From Pontibacterium sinense (lineage in GTDB: Bacteria > Pseudomonadota > Gammaproteobacteria > Pseudomonadales > Balneatricaceae): a DNA stretch of 54,071 nt. The notes under the pieces were generated by a model. That model did no database searches. It had not been told where the DNA came from and worked only from the letters and a program-made list of their open reading frames with translations. The position numbers were made by a program, and so were the translations under genes. Location: NCBI RefSeq assembly GCF_015209595.1, contig NZ_JADEYS010000028.1, positions 1-54,071 of the forward strand. Direction: 5' to 3'. Below, piece by piece: positions 16,417 to 50,395 of this stretch (its first letter is position 1; each line of letters begins with the position of its first letter).

Positions 16417-18846
16417 ATGGCGCAAACAGATGATAACAATGCACAGGTAACCACAGAGCTTCCGGTTCTTCCGTTGCGCGATGTGGTGGTTTACCCGCAT
16501 ATGGTAATACCGCTTTTTGTAGGTCGCGAAAAATCGATTCAGGCTCTGGAAGTTGCAATGAGCCAGGAAAAAGAGATTCTGTTGGTTGCGCAGAAGAACG
16601 CATCTGACGATGACCCGGCTGCGGATGAGCTGTTTGATGTAGGTACCGTGGCCAGCGTGCTGCAGATGCTCAAACTTCCTGATGGCACCGTGAAAGTGCT
16701 GGTGGAAGGCGATTACCGTGCGACGATCAAGTCGTTGAACGACGACCAAGAATATTTCATGGCAGAGACCGAGTCTCTGGCGATTGAAGATGTAACTGAA
16801 GCTGAAGCGGAACTGTATAAGCGTACGATGCTGGAACAGTTCGAACGTTTTGTGCAGGTGAACAAAAAGATTCCATCTGAAGTACTGGCGTCACTGCAGA
16901 ATATCGACGATGCGGGCCGCTTGGCAGATACTATTGCGGCACACATGTCGCTGAAGCTGGAAGAAAAACAGAAAATTCTAGAGATGCTCAGCAATCGAGA
17001 GCGTCTTGAGCATCTGATGGCACTGATGGAAGGTGAAATCGACCTGGTTGAGGTCGAGAAGCGTATCCGTGGTCGTGTTAAGAAACAGATGGAAAAGAGC
17101 CAGCGCGAGTACTACCTGAATGAGCAGATGAAGGCTATTCAGAAAGAACTGGGCGATATGGACGAGACCGGTTCCAATGACATGGAGCAGCTCAAACAGC
17201 GTATCGAAGAAGCGGGCATGCCGCAGGAAGCGCTGGATAAAACCATGAGCGAATACAACAAGCTGAAGATGATGTCTCCGATGTCAGCTGAGGCAACCGT
17301 TGTCCGTGGTTATATCGATTGGATGCTGCTGATTCCATGGACTAAGCGCTCTAAAGTACGTCATGACATGAAGCGTGCGGAAAAGATCCTGAACGAAGAC
17401 CACTACGGTCTGGAAGAGGTGAAAGACCGCATTCTGGAGTACTTGGCTGTTCAGCGCCGAGTGAAGAAGCTTAAAGGTCCGATTTTGTGTCTGGTTGGGC
17501 CTCCGGGTGTGGGTAAAACCTCACTGGGTCGTTCAATTGCACGTGCAACCAACCGTAAGTATGTACGTATGGCTTTGGGTGGTGTGCGTGATGAAGCGGA
17601 AATCCGTGGTCACCGTCGTACTTACATCGGCTCTATGCCTGGTAAGCTTGTGCAGAAGATGTCTAAAGTGGGTGTGAAAAACCCGCTGTTCCTGCTCGAT
17701 GAGATCGACAAGATGGGTATGGATCATCGCGGTGATCCTGCGTCTGCACTGCTGGAAGTACTTGATCCGGAACAGAACAACACATTCAACGATCACTATC
17801 TGGAAGTCGATTATGATCTGTCTGATGTGATGTTTGTGTGTACCTCGAACTCTATGAATATTCCGGGTCCGTTGCTGGATCGAATGGAATTAATTCGTAT
17901 TCCAGGCTACACCGAAGACGAAAAGCTGAATATTGCACGTAAATATCTGATTCCTAAGCAGCTTAAGAATAACGGTCTGAAGGAAAAAGAGGTTACAATC
18001 GAAGATTCTGCGGTTGAGGGACTGATTCGTTACTACACGCGTGAAGCGGGTGTGCGTGGCCTCGAACGTGAAATTGCTAAATTGTGTCGTAAAGTCGTTA
18101 AGAAGTTAGCTCTGGCAGACAAAGATGAGCTGCCAGTTGTTATTGGTCAGGATCAGCTCGAAGACTATTCCGGTGTTAAGAAGCACAAATTCGGAATGGC
18201 CGAAGAGGAAGATCTGGTAGGCCATGTAACAGGTCTTGCGTGGACACAGGTTGGTGGCGATATTCTGAGTATCGAAGGCGCGGTTGTACCGGGTAAAGGC
18301 CGACAAGTCACAACGGGTAGCCTGGGCGACGTGATGAAAGAGTCGATTCAGGCAGCCCTGACCGTTGTGCGTAATCGTGCTGATACGCTGGGTATTAAGC
18401 CGGACTTCCATGAGAAGAACGATATTCATATCCATGTGCCAGAAGGTGCGACACCTAAAGATGGTCCAAGTGCGGGTATTGGCATGTGCACGGCGCTGGT
18501 ATCTGTACTCACAAATATTCCGGTACGCTCTGATGTGGCGATGACGGGTGAAATTACGTTGCGTGGACAAGTTCTGCCGATTGGCGGACTGAAGGAAAAA
18601 CTGTTGGCGGCACACCGTGGTGGTATCAAGACCGTGGTTATTCCTGAAGAAAATGAACGTGATTTGAAAGAAATTCCGGCCAATATCAAAGCAGATCTTG
18701 ATATTAAGCCGGTTAGATGGATCGACGAGGTTCTGGAGATTGCGCTTAAGTATCAGCCGGAACCTTTGCAGGGTGAAGCAGAAGAAGATGTTTCTGGCAA
18801 GAAGAAATCAGCAAAAAATGAGCATGGGCAAATAAAGGCACATTAG
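16417..18846 (+). CDS. lon: ATP-dependent protease La (Lon)
   Basis: Lon is a hexameric cytosolic protease that unfolds and degrades damaged and regulatory proteins. Domain order in the 809 residues is the N-terminal LAN domain ([16 protein letters not shown]), a coiled region with many charged helices (about 190-310), the AAA+ module with Walker [10 protein letters not shown] near 361-369 and LLDEIDKMG, and the S16 protease domain with catalytic S685 (GPSAGI) and K728 (GLKEK). The charged tail after 780 is longer than in E. coli (784 residues in all). It is transcribed from a heat-shock-like promoter and followed by hupB. Confidence 0.97.
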
Positions 18847-18879
18847 GTAAATCAAGGGGTAGAAAGGCGTTGAAGCTTG

Positions 18880-18909
18880 TTGACACCCCTTTCTGCCTGT
18901 TGGTATAAA
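18880..18909 (+). promoter_or_regulatory. Strong sigma-70 promoter of hupB
   Basis: A perfect TTGACA (18880-18885), an 18-base spacer and TATAAA (18904-18909), with TG just before the -10. The -35 lies inside two competing inverted repeats (aaggggt 18854-18860 with acccctt 18885-18891; agaaagg 18861-18867 with cctttct 18888-18894). These could be the lon terminator or an operator. Confidence 0.8.
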
Positions 18910-18981
18910 ATGCCAAGACCATCTTGCTGGACTGGATTTTTTAGATATAACAACTAGATCTTTTCGATAAAGGGGAACAAT

Positions 18982-19257
18982 GTGAATAAGTCTGAACTGA
19001 TCGACGCGATTGCGGCTTCTGCTGACATCTCTAAAGCTGCTGCGGGTCGTGCTCTGGACGCTACTCTGGAAGCTGTAACTGGTGCTCTGCAGGAAGGAGA
19101 TTCTGTTGCGCTGGTAGGTTTTGGTACTTTTGCTGTGAAAGAGCGTGCTGCGCGTACGGGTCGTAACCCTCAGACCGGTAAGCCAATCGAGATTGCTGCA
19201 GCTACACTGCCTACCTTCAAACCAGGTAAGGCTCTGAAAGACGCAGTAAACAAGTAA
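18982..19257 (+). CDS. hupB: DNA-binding protein HU, beta type
   Basis: HU is a small dimeric nucleoid protein that bends and compacts DNA. The 91 residues begin [24 protein letters not shown] and carry the arm motif [12 protein letters not shown] typical of the family. The start is GTG at 18982. The overlapping ATG at 18980 runs straight into TGA, so it cannot be the start, and AGGGGAA lies at the right distance from the GTG. lon-hupB-ppiD is the conserved order in gammaproteobacteria. A hairpin overlaps the stop codon (19255-19280). Confidence 0.96.
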
Positions 19258-19284
19258 AACCCGGTAGCGTCGGGGTTTTACTAT

Positions 19285-19488
19285 AGGTTCGGACCAGAAA
19301 AGGCACATTGCTATTCTGACCGCTCCGCCAATGTTCTCGTGGAAGGGGGCATCAAGGAATGCAGAGGTACTACAAATTGTGTATTACACCCTGCGTTCCT
19401 TTAAACCGGTTGGTATCATTGCGACATTTGCCGGTTTCAAAATTGTAGAAAAGGCGCATTCCTGTTTTAGGGGTGCGCCTTTTTTGTT
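19285..19488 (+). ncRNA. Candidate small RNA or hupB 3'-derived RNA
   Basis: This 260-bp gap has no open frame but several consecutive hairpins. The first is loose: ccagaa around 19294 with ttctg around 19314. The second has an 11-bp stem, aaggaatgcag (19354-19364) with ctgcgttcctt (19391-19401), with one G-T pair and further pairing inside. The third is AAACCGG (19403-19409) with CCGGTTT (19431-19437). Last is a rho-independent terminator, stem 19449-19458 with 19474-19483, followed by T. No good promoter is seen directly before it, so it may be cut from the hupB transcript. No known RNA family is recognised. Confidence 0.5.
19449..19487 (+). terminator. Rho-independent terminator before ppiD
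   Basis: AAAAGGCGCA (19449-19458) pairs with TGCGCCTTTT (19474-19483), CCT/AGG pairs in the loop, and more T follows. Confidence 0.85.
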
Positions 19489-19521
19489 TGTTACATGATT
19501 TGCCAGGATTCTTAAAGCACC

Positions 19522-21408
19522 ATGCTGCAATCGATTCGGAATAACTCTCAAGGCATTATCGCAAAGGTGATTGTTGGCCTGATCGCTGTTACTTTTGCTC
19601 TGTTCGGTGTTGAGTCACTTGTTAGCCTGACAAGTGGCAGCAATGCGCCAGCGACAGTCAACGGAGAAGAGGTCAGTGAGCGACAGTTGCTGCAGGGCGT
19701 AGAGCTACAGCGTCGCCAGCTACTTAATCAAATGGGAGAGAACGCCGATCCAACTCTGTTGGACGATAACGTTATCAGCAAAATGGTGCTGGACGGTTTG
19801 ATCGAACAGGCGGTGCTGACTCAGGCTGCAGGTGCTCAGGACATGGTGTTTAGTGATCGTATGATCGACCAGATGCTGGTCAGCACACCAAGCTTTCAGG
19901 TAGACGGAAAATTTGACCGTGTACAGTTTGAGTCCGTGCTGCGTAACGCCGGCCTGTCTCCGCTGATGTATCGCGATCTGGTGCGCAAAGAGAAAGTGGT
20001 TGAGCAGCTGCGTACCGGTTACCTGTTGTCTTCGTTCTCTCTGGAATCTGATCTGACACGTGTTATAGAGCTAGATCAGCAGACTCGAGATCTGAGCTAC
20101 TTCGAGCTGGATGCAGATAAAGTACAGGCAGGTATCCAGATTGATGAGCAGGATGCTAAGCAGTACTTTGATGATAACCGCGCGTCATACAAGACTGAAG
20201 AGCAGGTGGTTGTAGAATACCTGTTGCTGGATAAAGTCAAAATGCTGGACGAAGTGAAGGTCGATGACGACGAGATTCAGCAGAAATATCAGGCGTTGGT
20301 TGATAACTTCGAAGGACAGGAGGAGCGTCAGGCGTCTCATATCCTGATCGAAATCTCCGATAGCCGCGATGCCGGTGATGCAGAAACAAAAGCGCAAGAT
20401 ATCGCCCAGCGGATCGCAGCAGGTGAAGACTTCGCCGAGCTGGCAAAAGCAGAATCCGACGATCCGGGTTCAGCTGAAAATGGCGGTGATCTGGGCTTCA
20501 ACGGCAAAGGGCTGTTTGTACCGGAATTCGATGAAGCATTGTTTGCCCTGGAGAAAGGACAGGTTTCAGAGCCTGTGCTCACTGATTTCGGTTATCACAT
20601 TATCAAGCTGATCGATGTGAAAGCGACTGAGGCGCCTAGCTTCGAGCAGGCTCAGAACGATATTAAATTTGATCTGATGCGTGAAAAGGTGGAGGCAATC
20701 TATGTTGATCGCATGGAGCGTCTGGCTGATCTGAGTTTCTCTTCAGGTGATCTGGTTGAGCCGGCGGAAGCGCTGGAGCTGGAAATCGTCACCAGCGAAC
20801 CGTTTACGCGTCTGGGTGGTGAAGATGATATTACCAGTAACAACCGCGTTGTTGCTGCTGTGTTTGGAGATGAGCTGCTGAAAGAAGGCGTGAACAGTAC
20901 ACCGCTGGAGCTGGATTCTTCTCGGGCAGTTGTTGTGCGTGTTAAAGAACATCTGAAACCACGCGAGCAGGCTTACGACGAGGTATCAGAGCAAGTGAAT
21001 GCAGAATTGCTGAAGGTGCGTGTATCTGACGCGTTGGATGCGAAAGTAGCTGATATTCTGGTCGCGTTGAACGGTGGGCAGACTCTAGCCTCTCAGGCTG
21101 ACGACAGTGAAGTTAAATCCCTGCCGGGCGTGAATCGTGCTCAGCGTGATCTGCCAGCAGAAGTGTTGCAGGAAGCGTTTAAAGTGCCTCATCCAGCTGA
21201 AGGCGGCGCTTCGTACGCATCTGTTGTGTTGGGTGACGGCGGTCGTGCGGTACTGGCCGTAACTGGCGTGCAGCAGGGTGCTGCGGGCGAGATGGGCGAA
21301 GAGGAGCGTACAACGATGCGCGCTGTACTTGGTTCGCGTAATGGTCAGTACGACTATCAAGACCTGCTGACTGAACTGAACGCTAAAGCTGAGGTTGAGC
21401 GTCTCTAA
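19522..21408 (+). CDS. ppiD: Periplasmic folding chaperone / peptidyl-prolyl isomerase PpiD
   Basis: PpiD is anchored in the inner membrane near the Sec translocon and helps newly exported proteins fold. The 628 residues start with a short cytosolic tail and a single membrane anchor (GIIAKVIVGLIAVTFALFGVE, about 10-30). A SurA-like N-terminal chaperone domain follows, then one parvulin domain starting at ASHILIEI and including FAELAKAESDDPGSAENGGDLG (about 270-365). The C-terminal third is helical. It ends in a strong terminator. Confidence 0.95.
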   Translation: MLQSIRNNSQGIIAKVIVGLIAVTFALFGVESLVSLTSGSNAPATVNGEEVSERQLLQGVELQRRQLLNQMGENADPTLLDDNVISKMVLDGLIEQAVLTQAAGAQDMVFSDRMIDQMLVSTPSFQVDGKFDRVQFESVLRNAGLSPLMYRDLVRKEKVVEQLRTGYLLSSFSLESDLTRVIELDQQTRDLSYFELDADKVQAGIQIDEQDAKQYFDDNRASYKTEEQVVVEYLLLDKVKMLDEVKVDDDEIQQKYQALVDNFEGQEERQASHILIEISDSRDAGDAETKAQDIAQRIAAGEDFAELAKAESDDPGSAENGGDLGFNGKGLFVPEFDEALFALEKGQVSEPVLTDFGYHIIKLIDVKATEAPSFEQAQNDIKFDLMREKVEAIYVDRMERLADLSFSSGDLVEPAEALELEIVTSEPFTRLGGEDDITSNNRVVAAVFGDELLKEGVNSTPLELDSSRAVVVRVKEHLKPREQAYDEVSEQVNAELLKVRVSDALDAKVADILVALNGGQTLASQADDSEVKSLPGVNRAQRDLPAEVLQEAFKVPHPAEGGASYASVVLGDGGRAVLAVTGVQQGAAGEMGEEERTTMRAVLGSRNGQYDYQDLLTELNAKAEVERL

Positions 21409-21435
21409 TTCGCCAACCTGAACACGCTTGAATAG

Positions 21436-21473
21436 AAACCGGTTCGTGCTGAAAAGTGCGAACCGGTTTTTTT
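21436..21473 (+). terminator. Terminator of ppiD
   Basis: A perfect 11-bp stem (21436-21446 with 21459-21469) is followed by a seven-T run. Confidence 0.88.
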
Positions 21474-21610
21474 ATGCGTGAGCGATGCCTTGGTAGTGGT
21501 TCGAAAGTAGTACTCATTCCCGCCTGACTGATAACGGATAAATGGCAGAAAGCAGCCATGCTTAATATACGTACCTTGTTAGCTGATATGCGTCAGTGGG
21601 AGATGATTCC

Positions 21611-21796
21611 ATGCCTGTTGCCAAAATAGACCTTCTGGAAAGCTGCTCAGCGGAAGAGAAAGAACGATTGGGTCAGGAACTGATTGATACCATCTGTCGA
21701 ACCATTACGGTTCCCAGAGACAGAGTAAAGGTCATCATCCATGATCAGGTAATCAGCCAGCGTGACGGAGGAGGGATGACGTTTATTCAGGGTTAA
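21611..21796 (+). CDS. 4-oxalocrotonate tautomerase-family protein
   Basis: The 61-residue protein starts Met-Pro, and the exposed Pro-1 is the catalytic base of this family. For that reason I place the start at ATG 21611, not at the upstream in-frame codon at 21596; GGGAGA lies at a suitable distance. The rest (ending RVKVIIHDQVIS.RDGGGMTFIQG) fits small tautomerases that form hexamers. No aromatic degradation genes are nearby, so the substrate is unknown. Confidence 0.8.
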   Translation: MPVAKIDLLESCSAEEKERLGQELIDTICRTITVPRDRVKVIIHDQVISQRDGGGMTFIQG

Positions 21797-21804
21797 CGCA
21801 GCCC

Positions 21805-21831
21805 TAAATGTCTGAGAAGATCGGCCGATAA
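21805..21831 (+). promoter_or_regulatory. FliA (sigma-28) flagellar promoter of motA
   Basis: TAAA (21805-21808), exactly 15 bases, then GCCGATAA (21824-21831). This equals the sigma-28 consensus TAAA-N15-GCCGATAA. The motA ATG follows about 85 bases later. It places the stator operon in the late flagellar class. Confidence 0.85.
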
Positions 21832-21915
21832 AACAGATTCAAACTGCATGGTTGAGCAGGATGCGAAACCGTCTGCTAGTATGTCTCAGACCCTATTACG
21901 GAATGCGTGTAACTT

Positions 21916-22743
21916 ATGGATTTTGCATCACTTATCGGTATTGTTTCCGGTCTTGCGCTGATTGTCTCTGCAATTATATTGGGTGGTAGCGCAGATGTTT
22001 TTGTAAACGTACCAGGTCTCATGATTGTGGCCGGTGGTACGATTGCCGCAACGTTTCTCACCGTTTCTTTCAAAGACGTACTCAAAGCCTTTAGAGCCGC
22101 GTATATCGTTTTCTCTAGCGATAAAACAAACGCCCAGAAGATGATTCAGACGATGTTGGAGCTGAGCCGTATCAGCCACCGTCACGGTTTGGTGAAATTG
22201 GGTGACGTTAAAACCAGTTCCAACGTTTTGAAGCGAGCCTGTAATCTGCTGGCGGAGGCTGCATCTGAGCAAGTCATCAGGAATACGCTACAGAACGAAA
22301 TTGATTCCCTGATCATGCGGCATCATACGGTTCAGGATATCTTCAAAAAGATGGCTGCGTATGCACCAGCATTCGGCATGCTGGGCACGCTGATTGGTCT
22401 GATCCAGATGCTGAGCGAGCTGGATAACCCGGAGACCATCGGTCCATCCATGGCTGTTGCACTTCTAACAACCTTCTATGGCTCTTTGCTTTCCACCATG
22501 GTGTTTCTGCCGATTGCCGGAAAGCTGCGCGCCCGTACCTTAGCTGAAGTGGCCAACCTGGAAATTATTCGCGAAGGCTGTATAGGCATCCTCACGAACG
22601 ACCACTACATGCATGTCTATGAGCAGCTGGCTTCCTATTTGCCTGAAGCGGAGCGTAAACCCGTGCGTATCGGAGGGAATAAATCTGCGTCGGGTGGCAA
22701 AGCGGCTCCGGCGGGGGCTGAGGCAAAAGGCAAGGCGAAGTGA
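21916..22743 (+). CDS. motA: Flagellar stator protein MotA/PomA
   Basis: This is the ion-channel subunit of the flagellar motor stator, forming a pentamer around the MotB dimer. The 275 residues have four membrane helices. Two are near the N-terminus (residues 5-25 and 30-55), followed by a charged cytosolic loop that contacts FliG. The last two include MLGTLIGLIQML and AVALLTTFYGSLLS. The sequence is closer to Vibrio PomA than to E. coli MotA, suggesting Na+ drive, but that is inference. A lysine/alanine/glycine-rich tail ends the protein. Its stop overlaps the motB start. Confidence 0.92.
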   Translation: MDFASLIGIVSGLALIVSAIILGGSADVFVNVPGLMIVAGGTIAATFLTVSFKDVLKAFRAAYIVFSSDKTNAQKMIQTMLELSRISHRHGLVKLGDVKTSSNVLKRACNLLAEAASEQVIRNTLQNEIDSLIMRHHTVQDIFKKMAAYAPAFGMLGTLIGLIQMLSELDNPETIGPSMAVALLTTFYGSLLSTMVFLPIAGKLRARTLAEVANLEIIREGCIGILTNDHYMHVYEQLASYLPEAERKPVRIGGNKSASGGKAAPAGAEAKGKAK

Positions 22744-48117: not shown

Positions 48118-48343
48118 TATGCCGTTTCCTGAGTAGATGTTTACAGGCTATCGGCAACTCGTGGTGGTTTTTTAGTCAGTTATACATGAGCAATACTCAT
48201 GTTAAACATAAGGGAATATGTCTTGCGCCTGAATATAAAAGGGATTAGCGCACGGAGGAGACTATCGCATGATAGTTATGTCAACGAGGGAAGGGCCTTA
48301 CCGGCCCCATCTCTTGTTGTACTACAGCAGTACTGCTTGAGCG

Positions 48344-50395
48344 TCAGCCCGCTTCCTGTGTGGGTTGATGATTAGCGATCAACTCAGTCTGCTGGCGGTT
48401 GGGTAGCGGTGCATAGTGGCTTAATGCCATTGTGAACTGACCTTCACCCCCGGTCAGTGCTTTGAGGCGTGACTGGTATCCATCCATTTCAGAAAGCGGT
48501 AATTGAGCGCTGATTTCCACCTGCTGCTGCGGTAATACCGCGGTGCCGTTGATCAGGCCTCGTTTGGCCGAGATATCTCCGGTAATGTCGCCCACGTTGT
48601 TGCTGGGGGTGATGATATTCACGTCCACAATGGGTTCCAGCAGAATGGGGTGGGCTTGATGAATGGCATCGAGAAAGGCTTTTTTACCGGCCGCGACAAA
48701 GGCGATCTCCTTCGAATCGACCGAATGGTGTTTGCCGTCGTACACCGTCACTTCAATGTCTTGCAGAGGAAATCCAGCTAAAGCGCCGCTGCCGAGTACC
48801 TGTCGCACACCTTTTTCGACCGCAGGGATAAATTGTCCAGGAATCGCACCACCCACGACCTTGTTTACAAACCGAAAGCCGCTGTCTCTGGGCAGCGGTG
48901 TGATGCGTAGCGAGACTTCGCCAAATTGTCCGGCACCGCCGGTTTGTTTTTTATGACGGTGGTGGCCTTCGGCTGGCGCGGTAATGGTTTCTCGATACGC
49001 GATGCTGGGTGGGCGGGTTTCAATCTCCAGGTTGTACTGGGACTGCATACGATCAAGGATGATTTTCAGATGCAGTTCTCCAGCCCCATACATAACCGTT
49101 TCGTTCTGGGCGATACGATGTTCGATCTTAATGCCAGGGTCTTCTGAGGCCAGCTTGTGCAATGCATCCGAAAGTTTTTGCTCGTCGCCGCGGCGGGTGG
49201 GCGTAATCGCCAGTCCGCACATCGGTTGAGGGCGTTCGACCATTCTCAGGTGATAATCGTCTTCCTCATGGTTGTCGTGTAGCAGGGCGTTAAACTCCAG
49301 ATCGTCTATTTTAGCGACAGCACATAGGTCACCGGGGATAGCGCTGGTGATCTCGCTGTGTTCTTTACCCTGCAGTTTCATCAGGTGAGCGACTTTAAAG
49401 GGTTTTCTGCTATCACCAATAAACAACTGGCTCCCTGTGTTAATCGTACCCTGATAGATACGAAACAGACCCACCCGGCCTAAATAGGGGTCAACAGAGA
49501 TTTTAAACACGTGCGCAATGACGTGAGCGTTAGGATCGGGTTTGACCCTGACCTCCGGGGCGTCAGGGCCTTCCCCTTTTAGGAATTGAGGTGGATTTGT
49601 TTCAAGAGGGCTGGGCATCAGTCGGGTAAGGATCTCCAGCAGCTGAGGAATACCCGCACCGGACTGCGCGGAGACAAAGCAGACCGGGATCAGGTGTCCG
49701 TCACGCAGGGCTTGTTCAAATGGGATATGGAGTTGTTCGGCAGTGAGTTCTTCGCCTTGCTCCAGATACAGTTGCATCAGTTCTTCATCGATCTCGACCA
49801 CCTGATCAACCAGTGTGTCATGTGCCTCCTGTACATCTGAAAATGCCGTTGTGGCATCCGTGTGTTCGAAAAAACAGTCAATCACCGATTGTCCGTCTGC
49901 TGCGGGTAAGTTCAGCGGTAAGCATTCGCTGCCAAACCGGGCCTGAATATCTTCCAGCAAGGCGGATGCATTGGTCGCTGGGCCGTCTGTTTTATTCACA
50001 ATGATTAAACAGGGCCGATCCGCTTCCCGGCTTTTTTCTATCATCAGCTGGGTGACTTGTTCGATGCCGGTATGGGCATTAATCACGACGGCTATGCTGT
50101 CTGCCGCGGGTAAAATGCTCAGTGTGCGTCCCATGAGCTCGGGGTATCCGGGTGTATCGAGCAGGTTCACGTGATGTTCGCTGTGGTCAAAGCTACACAG
50201 GGTGACATCAATCGAGTGTTGCAAGGCTTTTTCCTGCGGAGAGTAATCAGATAGGGTGGTGCCGCATTCAATATTGCCGGGTATGCTCAGTGCACCGGAG
50301 TGATATAGCAGGCTTTCGATGAGCGTGGTTTTACCGCAACCGGTGTGGCCGACAATAGCCACGTTGCGGATGTTCTCTGTGCTGAAGCGGGGCAT
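48344..50395 (-). CDS. Elongation factor G-like translational GTPase
   Basis: The 683-residue protein has all EF-G domains. G1 is GHTGCGKTT at about 16-24, G3 is DTPG and G4 is NKTD. The domain IV start is HHRHKKQTGGAGQFGEVSLR and domain V is C-terminal. The G2/switch I region (GTTLSDYSPQEKALQHSI) differs from that of canonical EF-G. It therefore belongs to the EF-G-like paralogues, which are found beside a normal fusA and whose role in elongation or recycling is unclear. It is not the str-operon gene: no rpsL, rpsG or tuf is nearby. GGAGG precedes the ATG. Confidence 0.85.
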   Translation of the reverse strand: MPRFSTENIRNVAIVGHTGCGKTTLIESLLYHSGALSIPGNIECGTTLSDYSPQEKALQHSIDVTLCSFDHSEHHVNLLDTPGYPELMGRTLSILPAADSIAVVINAHTGIEQVTQLMIEKSREADRPCLIIVNKTDGPATNASALLEDIQARFGSECLPLNLPAADGQSVIDCFFEHTDATTAFSDVQEAHDTLVDQVVEIDEELMQLYLEQGEELTAEQLHIPFEQALRDGHLIPVCFVSAQSGAGIPQLLEILTRLMPSPLETNPPQFLKGEGPDAPEVRVKPDPNAHVIAHVFKISVDPYLGRVGLFRIYQGTINTGSQLFIGDSRKPFKVAHLMKLQGKEHSEITSAIPGDLCAVAKIDDLEFNALLHDNHEEDDYHLRMVERPQPMCGLAITPTRRGDEQKLSDALHKLASEDPGIKIEHRIAQNETVMYGAGELHLKIILDRMQSQYNLEIETRPPSIAYRETITAPAEGHHRHKKQTGGAGQFGEVSLRITPLPRDSGFRFVNKVVGGAIPGQFIPAVEKGVRQVLGSGALAGFPLQDIEVTVYDGKHHSVDSKEIAFVAAGKKAFLDAIHQAHPILLEPIVDVNIITPSNNVGDITGDISAKRGLINGTAVLPQQQVEISAQLPLSEMDGYQSRLKALTGGEGQFTMALSHYAPLPNRQQTELIANHQPTQEAG

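Follow-up and report, generated by a model that had tools for sequence, protein, structure and literature searches.

A hairpin array between hupB and ppiD in Pontibacterium, probably the 3' end of a former hupB-tRNA-Asp transcript

Structured 3' untranslated regions (3' UTRs) that end in an intrinsic terminator are a known kind of system, and among the RNAs that derive from the 3' spacer of a tRNA is one named 3'ETS-leuZ. The class of tRNA 3' external transcribed spacer RNAs is that of Lalaouna et al. 2015, as cited in PMC7213987. Decayed tRNAs can also be put to use: according to PMC3399842, tRNA-Other of Bacillus cereus is a pseudo-tRNA with a role outside translation, which retains its anticodon and can be charged, though poorly, in vitro. 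Here we analyzed a stretch of 54,071 nucleotides from Pontibacterium sinense (the window), in which the space between hupB and ppiD contains an array of hairpins. The array probably ended a transcript of hupB and tRNA-Asp in which the tRNA has since decayed, and would now be the 3' UTR of hupB.

The hupB-ppiD gap is 264 nt long. Upstream of it lies a 91-aa frame on the + strand (18982..19257), used as the tblastn anchor, which we take to be hupB, encoding HU beta; an initial annotation of this DNA used the same name. The frame is preceded by a promoter-like site, TTGACA-18 nt-TATAAA (18880..18909, + strand; sigma-70-like score 12/13), judged from its sequence to be the probable promoter of the whole hupB unit. 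The downstream frame (19522..21408, + strand), presumably ppiD and likewise so named before, starts only after the array, as had been noted. A hairpin spans the hupB stop codon (19253..19282), and hairpins of the same kind occur in all four other Pontibacterium genomes compared. There follow, on the same strand, a putative tRNA-Asp relic lacking its interior (19286..19330), hairpin I with the loop GTGGAA (19331..19352), stem II (19354..19401), stem III (19403..19437) and an intrinsic terminator hairpin with a T run (19446..19486). The initial annotation had described serial hairpins in this gap, and these were found, together with hairpin I as a further small one. Its 11-bp stem at 19354-19401 is present, with 11 outer pairs including one G-U; its 7-bp stem at 19403-19437 is correctly placed but has eight outer pairs; and its strong terminator, put at 19449-19487, is the hairpin at 19446-19486. 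The accompanying statement that no open frame is present is not strictly true, as a 55-codon ATG frame runs from 19331 to 19498. A coded peptide was considered and rejected: in P. granulatum the frame has no start codon and meets a stop after 7 codons (by eye).

The segment 19285-19488 folds at -80.9 kcal/mol (z -5.1), a value equaled by none of 200 shuffles. With 300 shuffles for each part, z was -6.7 for the terminator, -5.3 for stem II, -4.05 for the hairpin at the hupB stop, -2.1 for stem III, -1.8 for hairpin I and -1.75 for the relic. Stem II and the terminator are by these values far beyond chance and account for most of the folding excess of the segment, and the values for hairpin I, for stem III and for the relic, each on its own, are weak. 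The terminator, a G+C-rich stem followed by a U run (-25.4 kcal/mol for the hairpin alone), was missed by a simple terminator scan because the loop and stem rules of that scan are narrower. Without it (19285-19445) z is -3.3, with 3 of 300 shuffles folding as well, and this value is not unique: in a coarse scan of the window, with 337 tiles of 161 nt on the + strand and 20 shuffles for each, the best tiles reach -5.1, and none of the best 12 of the 337 covers the array. Of the three + strand tiles that fold best in that scan, two (z -4.6 and -5.1, 20 shuffles each) fall at 48165-48485, surrounding the end of a long - strand frame that we take to resemble elongation factor G. A GGA displayed in a hairpin loop is a CsrA-like motif, and hairpin I exposes one in its loop (19339-19344; unpaired probability 0.92-0.93) inside CTCGTGGAAGGGG, a loop region that is the same in P. 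granulatum. The array was rejected as a CsrA target; a single exposed GGA (19341) is too little.

Five Pontibacterium genomes were compared: G000 (the window's own), G001 (P. granulatum), G002, G003 and G004. In an alignment of the array from G000, G003 and G001 (A3), 95.0% of cells are paired and 7 of 40 pairs have changed at both positions and still pair; none of 500 shuffles reaches either figure, and slid controls yield at most two double-changed pairs. Six of the seven lie in stem II (19 pairs) and one in hairpin I (8 pairs); stem III hardly varies, with 10 of its 13 pairs invariant and none double-changed. Pairing fails in 6 of 120 cells, and the number of further pair types is unremarkable (48/500 shuffles). 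With G000 and G003 almost the same, the test amounts to a single comparison between two species. The array fold looks conserved as RNA because of the double-changed pairs that no shuffle matches, and the gap is, on two species, a real RNA region of conserved structure. A lack of compensatory changes in related species had been named in the initial annotation as one half of what would refute its claim; the structure passed this half here and, with a separate array, in the genus g2 described below.

What the array derives from is indicated by its relatives. Among 116 genomes of the family, 112 have ppiD and 105 gaps were scored; the remainder of the 112 are G025, G028, G096 and G097, together with G017, G038 and G110, which have no hupB in the stretch. 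ARAGORN placed a tRNA-Asp(GUC) between hupB and ppiD in 65 of the 105 gaps, spread over 11 of 16 genera, with one tRNA read as Asn and no tRNA in the other 39. The tRNA-Asp stands 20-54 nt behind hupB in 55 of these 65 gaps and is followed by a terminator, with hairpins interposed between the two in Pontibacterium and some other genera. What looks like an orphan small RNA in one genome can in this way be explained by its neighbors. At the level of the order, 184 of 194 genomes have ppiD; 40 were picked by hand, one per family, nine of these had no recognizable ppiD start, and 4 of the 31 left carry tRNA-Asp. Among five distant named loci (L114-L118) three have it, and two gammaproteobacterial ones (L117, L118) have tRNA-Val plus tRNA-Asp. 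Within Pontibacterium, tRNA-Asp is present in the gap of G002 and G004 (2/5) and absent from that of G000, G003 and G001; in the window's gap ARAGORN finds no tRNA, and there is no tRNA-Asp cloverleaf with a GUC anticodon. Two intact tRNA-Asp copies are found elsewhere in G000, so the copy in the gap could be lost.

Other features were seen in these gaps. In genus g11 (L022, L027, L031, L035; L026 by eye) a string of hairpins with arms kept and sequence changed precedes tRNA-Asp (mean z -5.1 over four scored loci); our guess is that it looks like a decayed tRNA, which by position would be tRNA-Val. In L073, L077 and L093, insertions of about 150-270 nt with inverted ends (by eye) separate the terminator from ppiD and, we presume, resemble small non-autonomous transposable elements. 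The trailer of the intact tRNA-Asp of G002 (L014) contains a second acceptor-like mini-hairpin, GGAATGG...CCGTTCCGCCA, like the end of the tRNA, and no shuffle out of 500 scores as high.

In the window, the place of the tRNA is taken by the candidate relic, with GGTTCGG at the tRNA's 5' position and CCGCTCCGCCA at its 3' end (19320-19330). Its offset from the hupB stop codon is 28 nt in G000 and G003, the same as that of the intact tRNA in G004, and 27 nt in G001. The version in G000 and G003, GGTTCGG...CCGYTCCGCCA, keeps 5 of 7 acceptor pairs, and that of P. granulatum, GGAACGG...CCGTTCC-ACCCA, keeps 7 of 7. The sequence score of the relic is not above that of shuffles (200/500 as high), and five sites like CCGCTCCGCCA, with at most one mismatch, occur on the window's two strands. 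The identification as a relic would be carried by position, 3' end and intermediates, not by that score; a remnant with recognizable ends does lie at the tRNA's position, as expected of a tRNA-Asp pseudogene. Apparent stages of decay were recognized by eye in other genera, from a full-length, mutated tRNA (G042) and a changed anticodon loop (G059) to a hairpin around the acceptor stem only (G022). The gap tRNA of G059 (L088) is the one read as tRNA-Asn (gtt); four scored congeners have tRNA-Asp, and it is probably decaying.

We then asked from where such a unit would be read, using a scan for promoters of the sigma-70 type in 66 loci that carry a tRNA (in one of these, a tRNA read as Asn); they yielded 66 stretches before hupB and 65 distinct ones before the tRNA. 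A score of at least 10 was found in none of the 65 stretches of 110 nt before the tRNA (mean 7.45, shuffles 7.66), in contrast to 65 of the 66 stretches before hupB (mean 11.94, shuffles 7.86). In the window the best scores out of 13 are 12 for hupB, 8 within 19285-19440 and 7 over the 110 nt that precede the relic, and in a simple scan of 17000-22000 the only promoter-like site is at 19838, inside ppiD. Since sigma-70-like sites lie before hupB and not before the tRNA, the tRNA, and now the array, would most simply be read from the hupB promoter. The initial annotation had given hupB its own hairpin at the stop codon; the hairpin is there, and terminator-like in the scan, but it is not clearly a full terminator, because tRNAs lie beyond it in relatives and have no visible promoter of their own.

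These scores bear most directly on the proposal of the initial annotation, a small RNA gene that stands alone and is read from a promoter of its own. The array is indeed terminated, structured and intergenic, and a terminator of its own is present; a sigma-70-type promoter of its own was not found, either in the window or before the tRNAs of relatives, and we hold such a gene to be quite improbable. Of the structured small RNA that had been claimed, the conserved fold stands; the second, promoter-driven transcript is not favored, and on present evidence the array is not a separate gene. Intergenic folding and a terminator, taken alone, do not make a separate gene, which may serve as a warning.

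A single hupB transcript is our preferred reading. In the window's lineage the interior of the tRNA would have been lost, with the acceptor-stem relic left, and hairpins I-III and the terminator would have been retained, with compensatory changes. RNA polymerase would start at the hupB promoter, pass the stop-codon hairpin, the relic and the array, and stop at the terminator near 19486. The array would thereby form a structured 3' UTR of the hupB mRNA that may shield its 3' end and govern its processing.

The array itself is lineage-specific. Strong matches to a model of it (R1) were found in 3 of 116 family genomes, one of them G000, and weak ones in two genomes (E 0.3-0.4); the trailers of G002 and G004 were not matched. 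Because R1 misses these two trailers, the view that the array is older than the loss of the tRNA rests on architecture, not on demonstrated homology. Genus g2 has a two-hairpin trailer of its own between tRNA-Asp and terminator in 11 of 16 scored genomes. Among ten distinct g2 trailers 7 of 17 pairs are double-changed (2/500 shuffles), with 19 such cells (0/500), in a test where one slid control had five double-changed pairs and further pair types were matched by 230/500 shuffles. A model of the g2 array (R2) matched strongly in 11 of 116 family genomes, of its own genus only, and weakly in nine (E 0.017-0.88; one locus at E 0.12). Homology of arrays across genera was rejected, R1 and R2 being strong only in their own genera.

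Across the family, trailers of at least 40 nt fold with a mean z of -3.4, 27 of 32 being below -2 (- strand: mean -2.1, 15/32); G072 and G073, in which the terminator pattern failed, duplicates and shorter pieces were set aside. Such structure is not general, as g2 pieces before the tRNA have a mean z of -0.6 (n=4) and tRNA-less gaps of g13 one of -0.8 (n=5). In genus g16, three loci (L092, L093, L103) have long, near-perfect hairpins behind tRNA-Asp, with similar AT-rich outer ends and inner stems that are quite different in each species; two other g16 loci have z values of -1.85 and -0.73.

Perfect stems can also arise by quasi-palindrome correction, in which template switching between the arms of a hairpin restores pairing with no selection on the RNA. 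On this basis the array could be debris that shares the origin proposed here and has no function, its hairpins arising and being kept perfect by template switching between arms. The window and G003 (L015) are nearly identical except for clustered changes in the relic loop (19297-19316), where the window's version, AGAAAAGGCACATTGC, resembles the 5' arm of the terminator, AGAAAAGGCGCATTCC, as if templated from it. Stem mismatches are also nearly even (37 G-U vs 28 A-C), which makes the strand asymmetry indecisive. Arm-to-arm templating does not, however, predict one-sided changes that pass through G-U on the + strand, and 9 of the 40 pairs show these (one of the nine being broken in G001 as well). 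In 25 of 29 trailers (those of the 32 below 150 nt) it is the + strand that folds better, which would speak against debris as well, but a control on hupB coding sequence has the same lean (23/31) and for that reason we do not rely on strand bias. We regard a functionless array as rather unlikely.

A small RNA of 130-200 nt may be cut from the hupB transcript by RNase E or a like enzyme and act in trans, akin in kind to tRNA-trailer sponges such as 3'ETS-leuZ or to 3' UTR-derived RNAs bound by ProQ or Hfq; its origin would be that of the preferred reading and its function different. Hairpins are followed by a U-tailed terminator, the structure is conserved in genomes without the tRNA, the array occupies the position of the relatives' spacer behind the tRNA, and a ProQ-domain protein and Hfq are both encoded in the window's genome. 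Against this, arrays of different genera are not recognizably related, and therefore no shared unpaired seed is in view. A released RNA is a possibility that we doubt about as much as that of debris. The probabilities attached to a hupB 3' UTR, a released RNA and debris are not exclusive because all three share the same origin. Bolder, and slightly more doubtful again, is the notion that the family's hupB-ppiD gap is a nursery of hairpins, in which tRNAs and their trailers repeatedly become lineage-specific, structure-conserved arrays, and that the Pontibacterium array survived the loss of its tRNA and now acts as a regulatory RNA freed from hupB mRNA.

Regulation of ppiD could be imagined if an arm of the array paired with the 5' arm of the terminator and opened it, and by eye GGAATGC in stem II is complementary to GCATTCC in the terminator. 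This complementarity is absent from P. granulatum (by eye), and at -25.4 kcal/mol the terminator was judged to be more than seven pairs could outweigh; such an attenuator is hardly credible.

The initial annotation knew of no named RNA at this site, and the gap has no Rfam match at gathering score. Its best match, to RF04312, has 26.5 bits against a gathering score of 59, and most of the gap's loose matches are due to the terminator hairpin. With Rfam 15, the whole window has only a tRNA (1-73) at gathering score, and in ten relatives' loci searched at a loose threshold only eight tRNA genes reach it. A REP, a MITE or another repeat was rejected, the 264-base gap finding in G000 only itself and four matches of 15-20 bases. 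Among the papers searched, none has hupB, ppiD and tRNA-Asp together and none on this array was found; hupB, ppiD and small RNA co-occur in one, on extracellular vesicles.

If the array is functional, it offers a tractable case of a tRNA trailer kept after the death of its tRNA, with related genomes standing on both sides of the loss. As with tRNA-Other of B. cereus (PMC3399842), the window would be a case of a tRNA relic kept in the genome; there the anticodon is retained, whereas here nothing but the acceptor-stem ends remains. With RNAs of the 3'ETS-leuZ type the array would share its place between a tRNA, here the relic, and the terminator of the transcript, a place that holds true in tRNA-bearing relatives, the window having only the relic before the array. 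It differs from them in that the window's lineage has lost the tRNA, a protein-coding gene lies upstream, and the RNA is a predicted one. As in structured 3' UTRs, stable hairpins and a U-tailed terminator follow a gene, and no promoter-like site separates them from it; unlike in such 3' UTRs, the region extends over about 230 nt and includes three extra hairpins, two of which have double-changed pairs. In kind, its nearest counterparts are tRNA 3' spacers and structured 3' UTRs.
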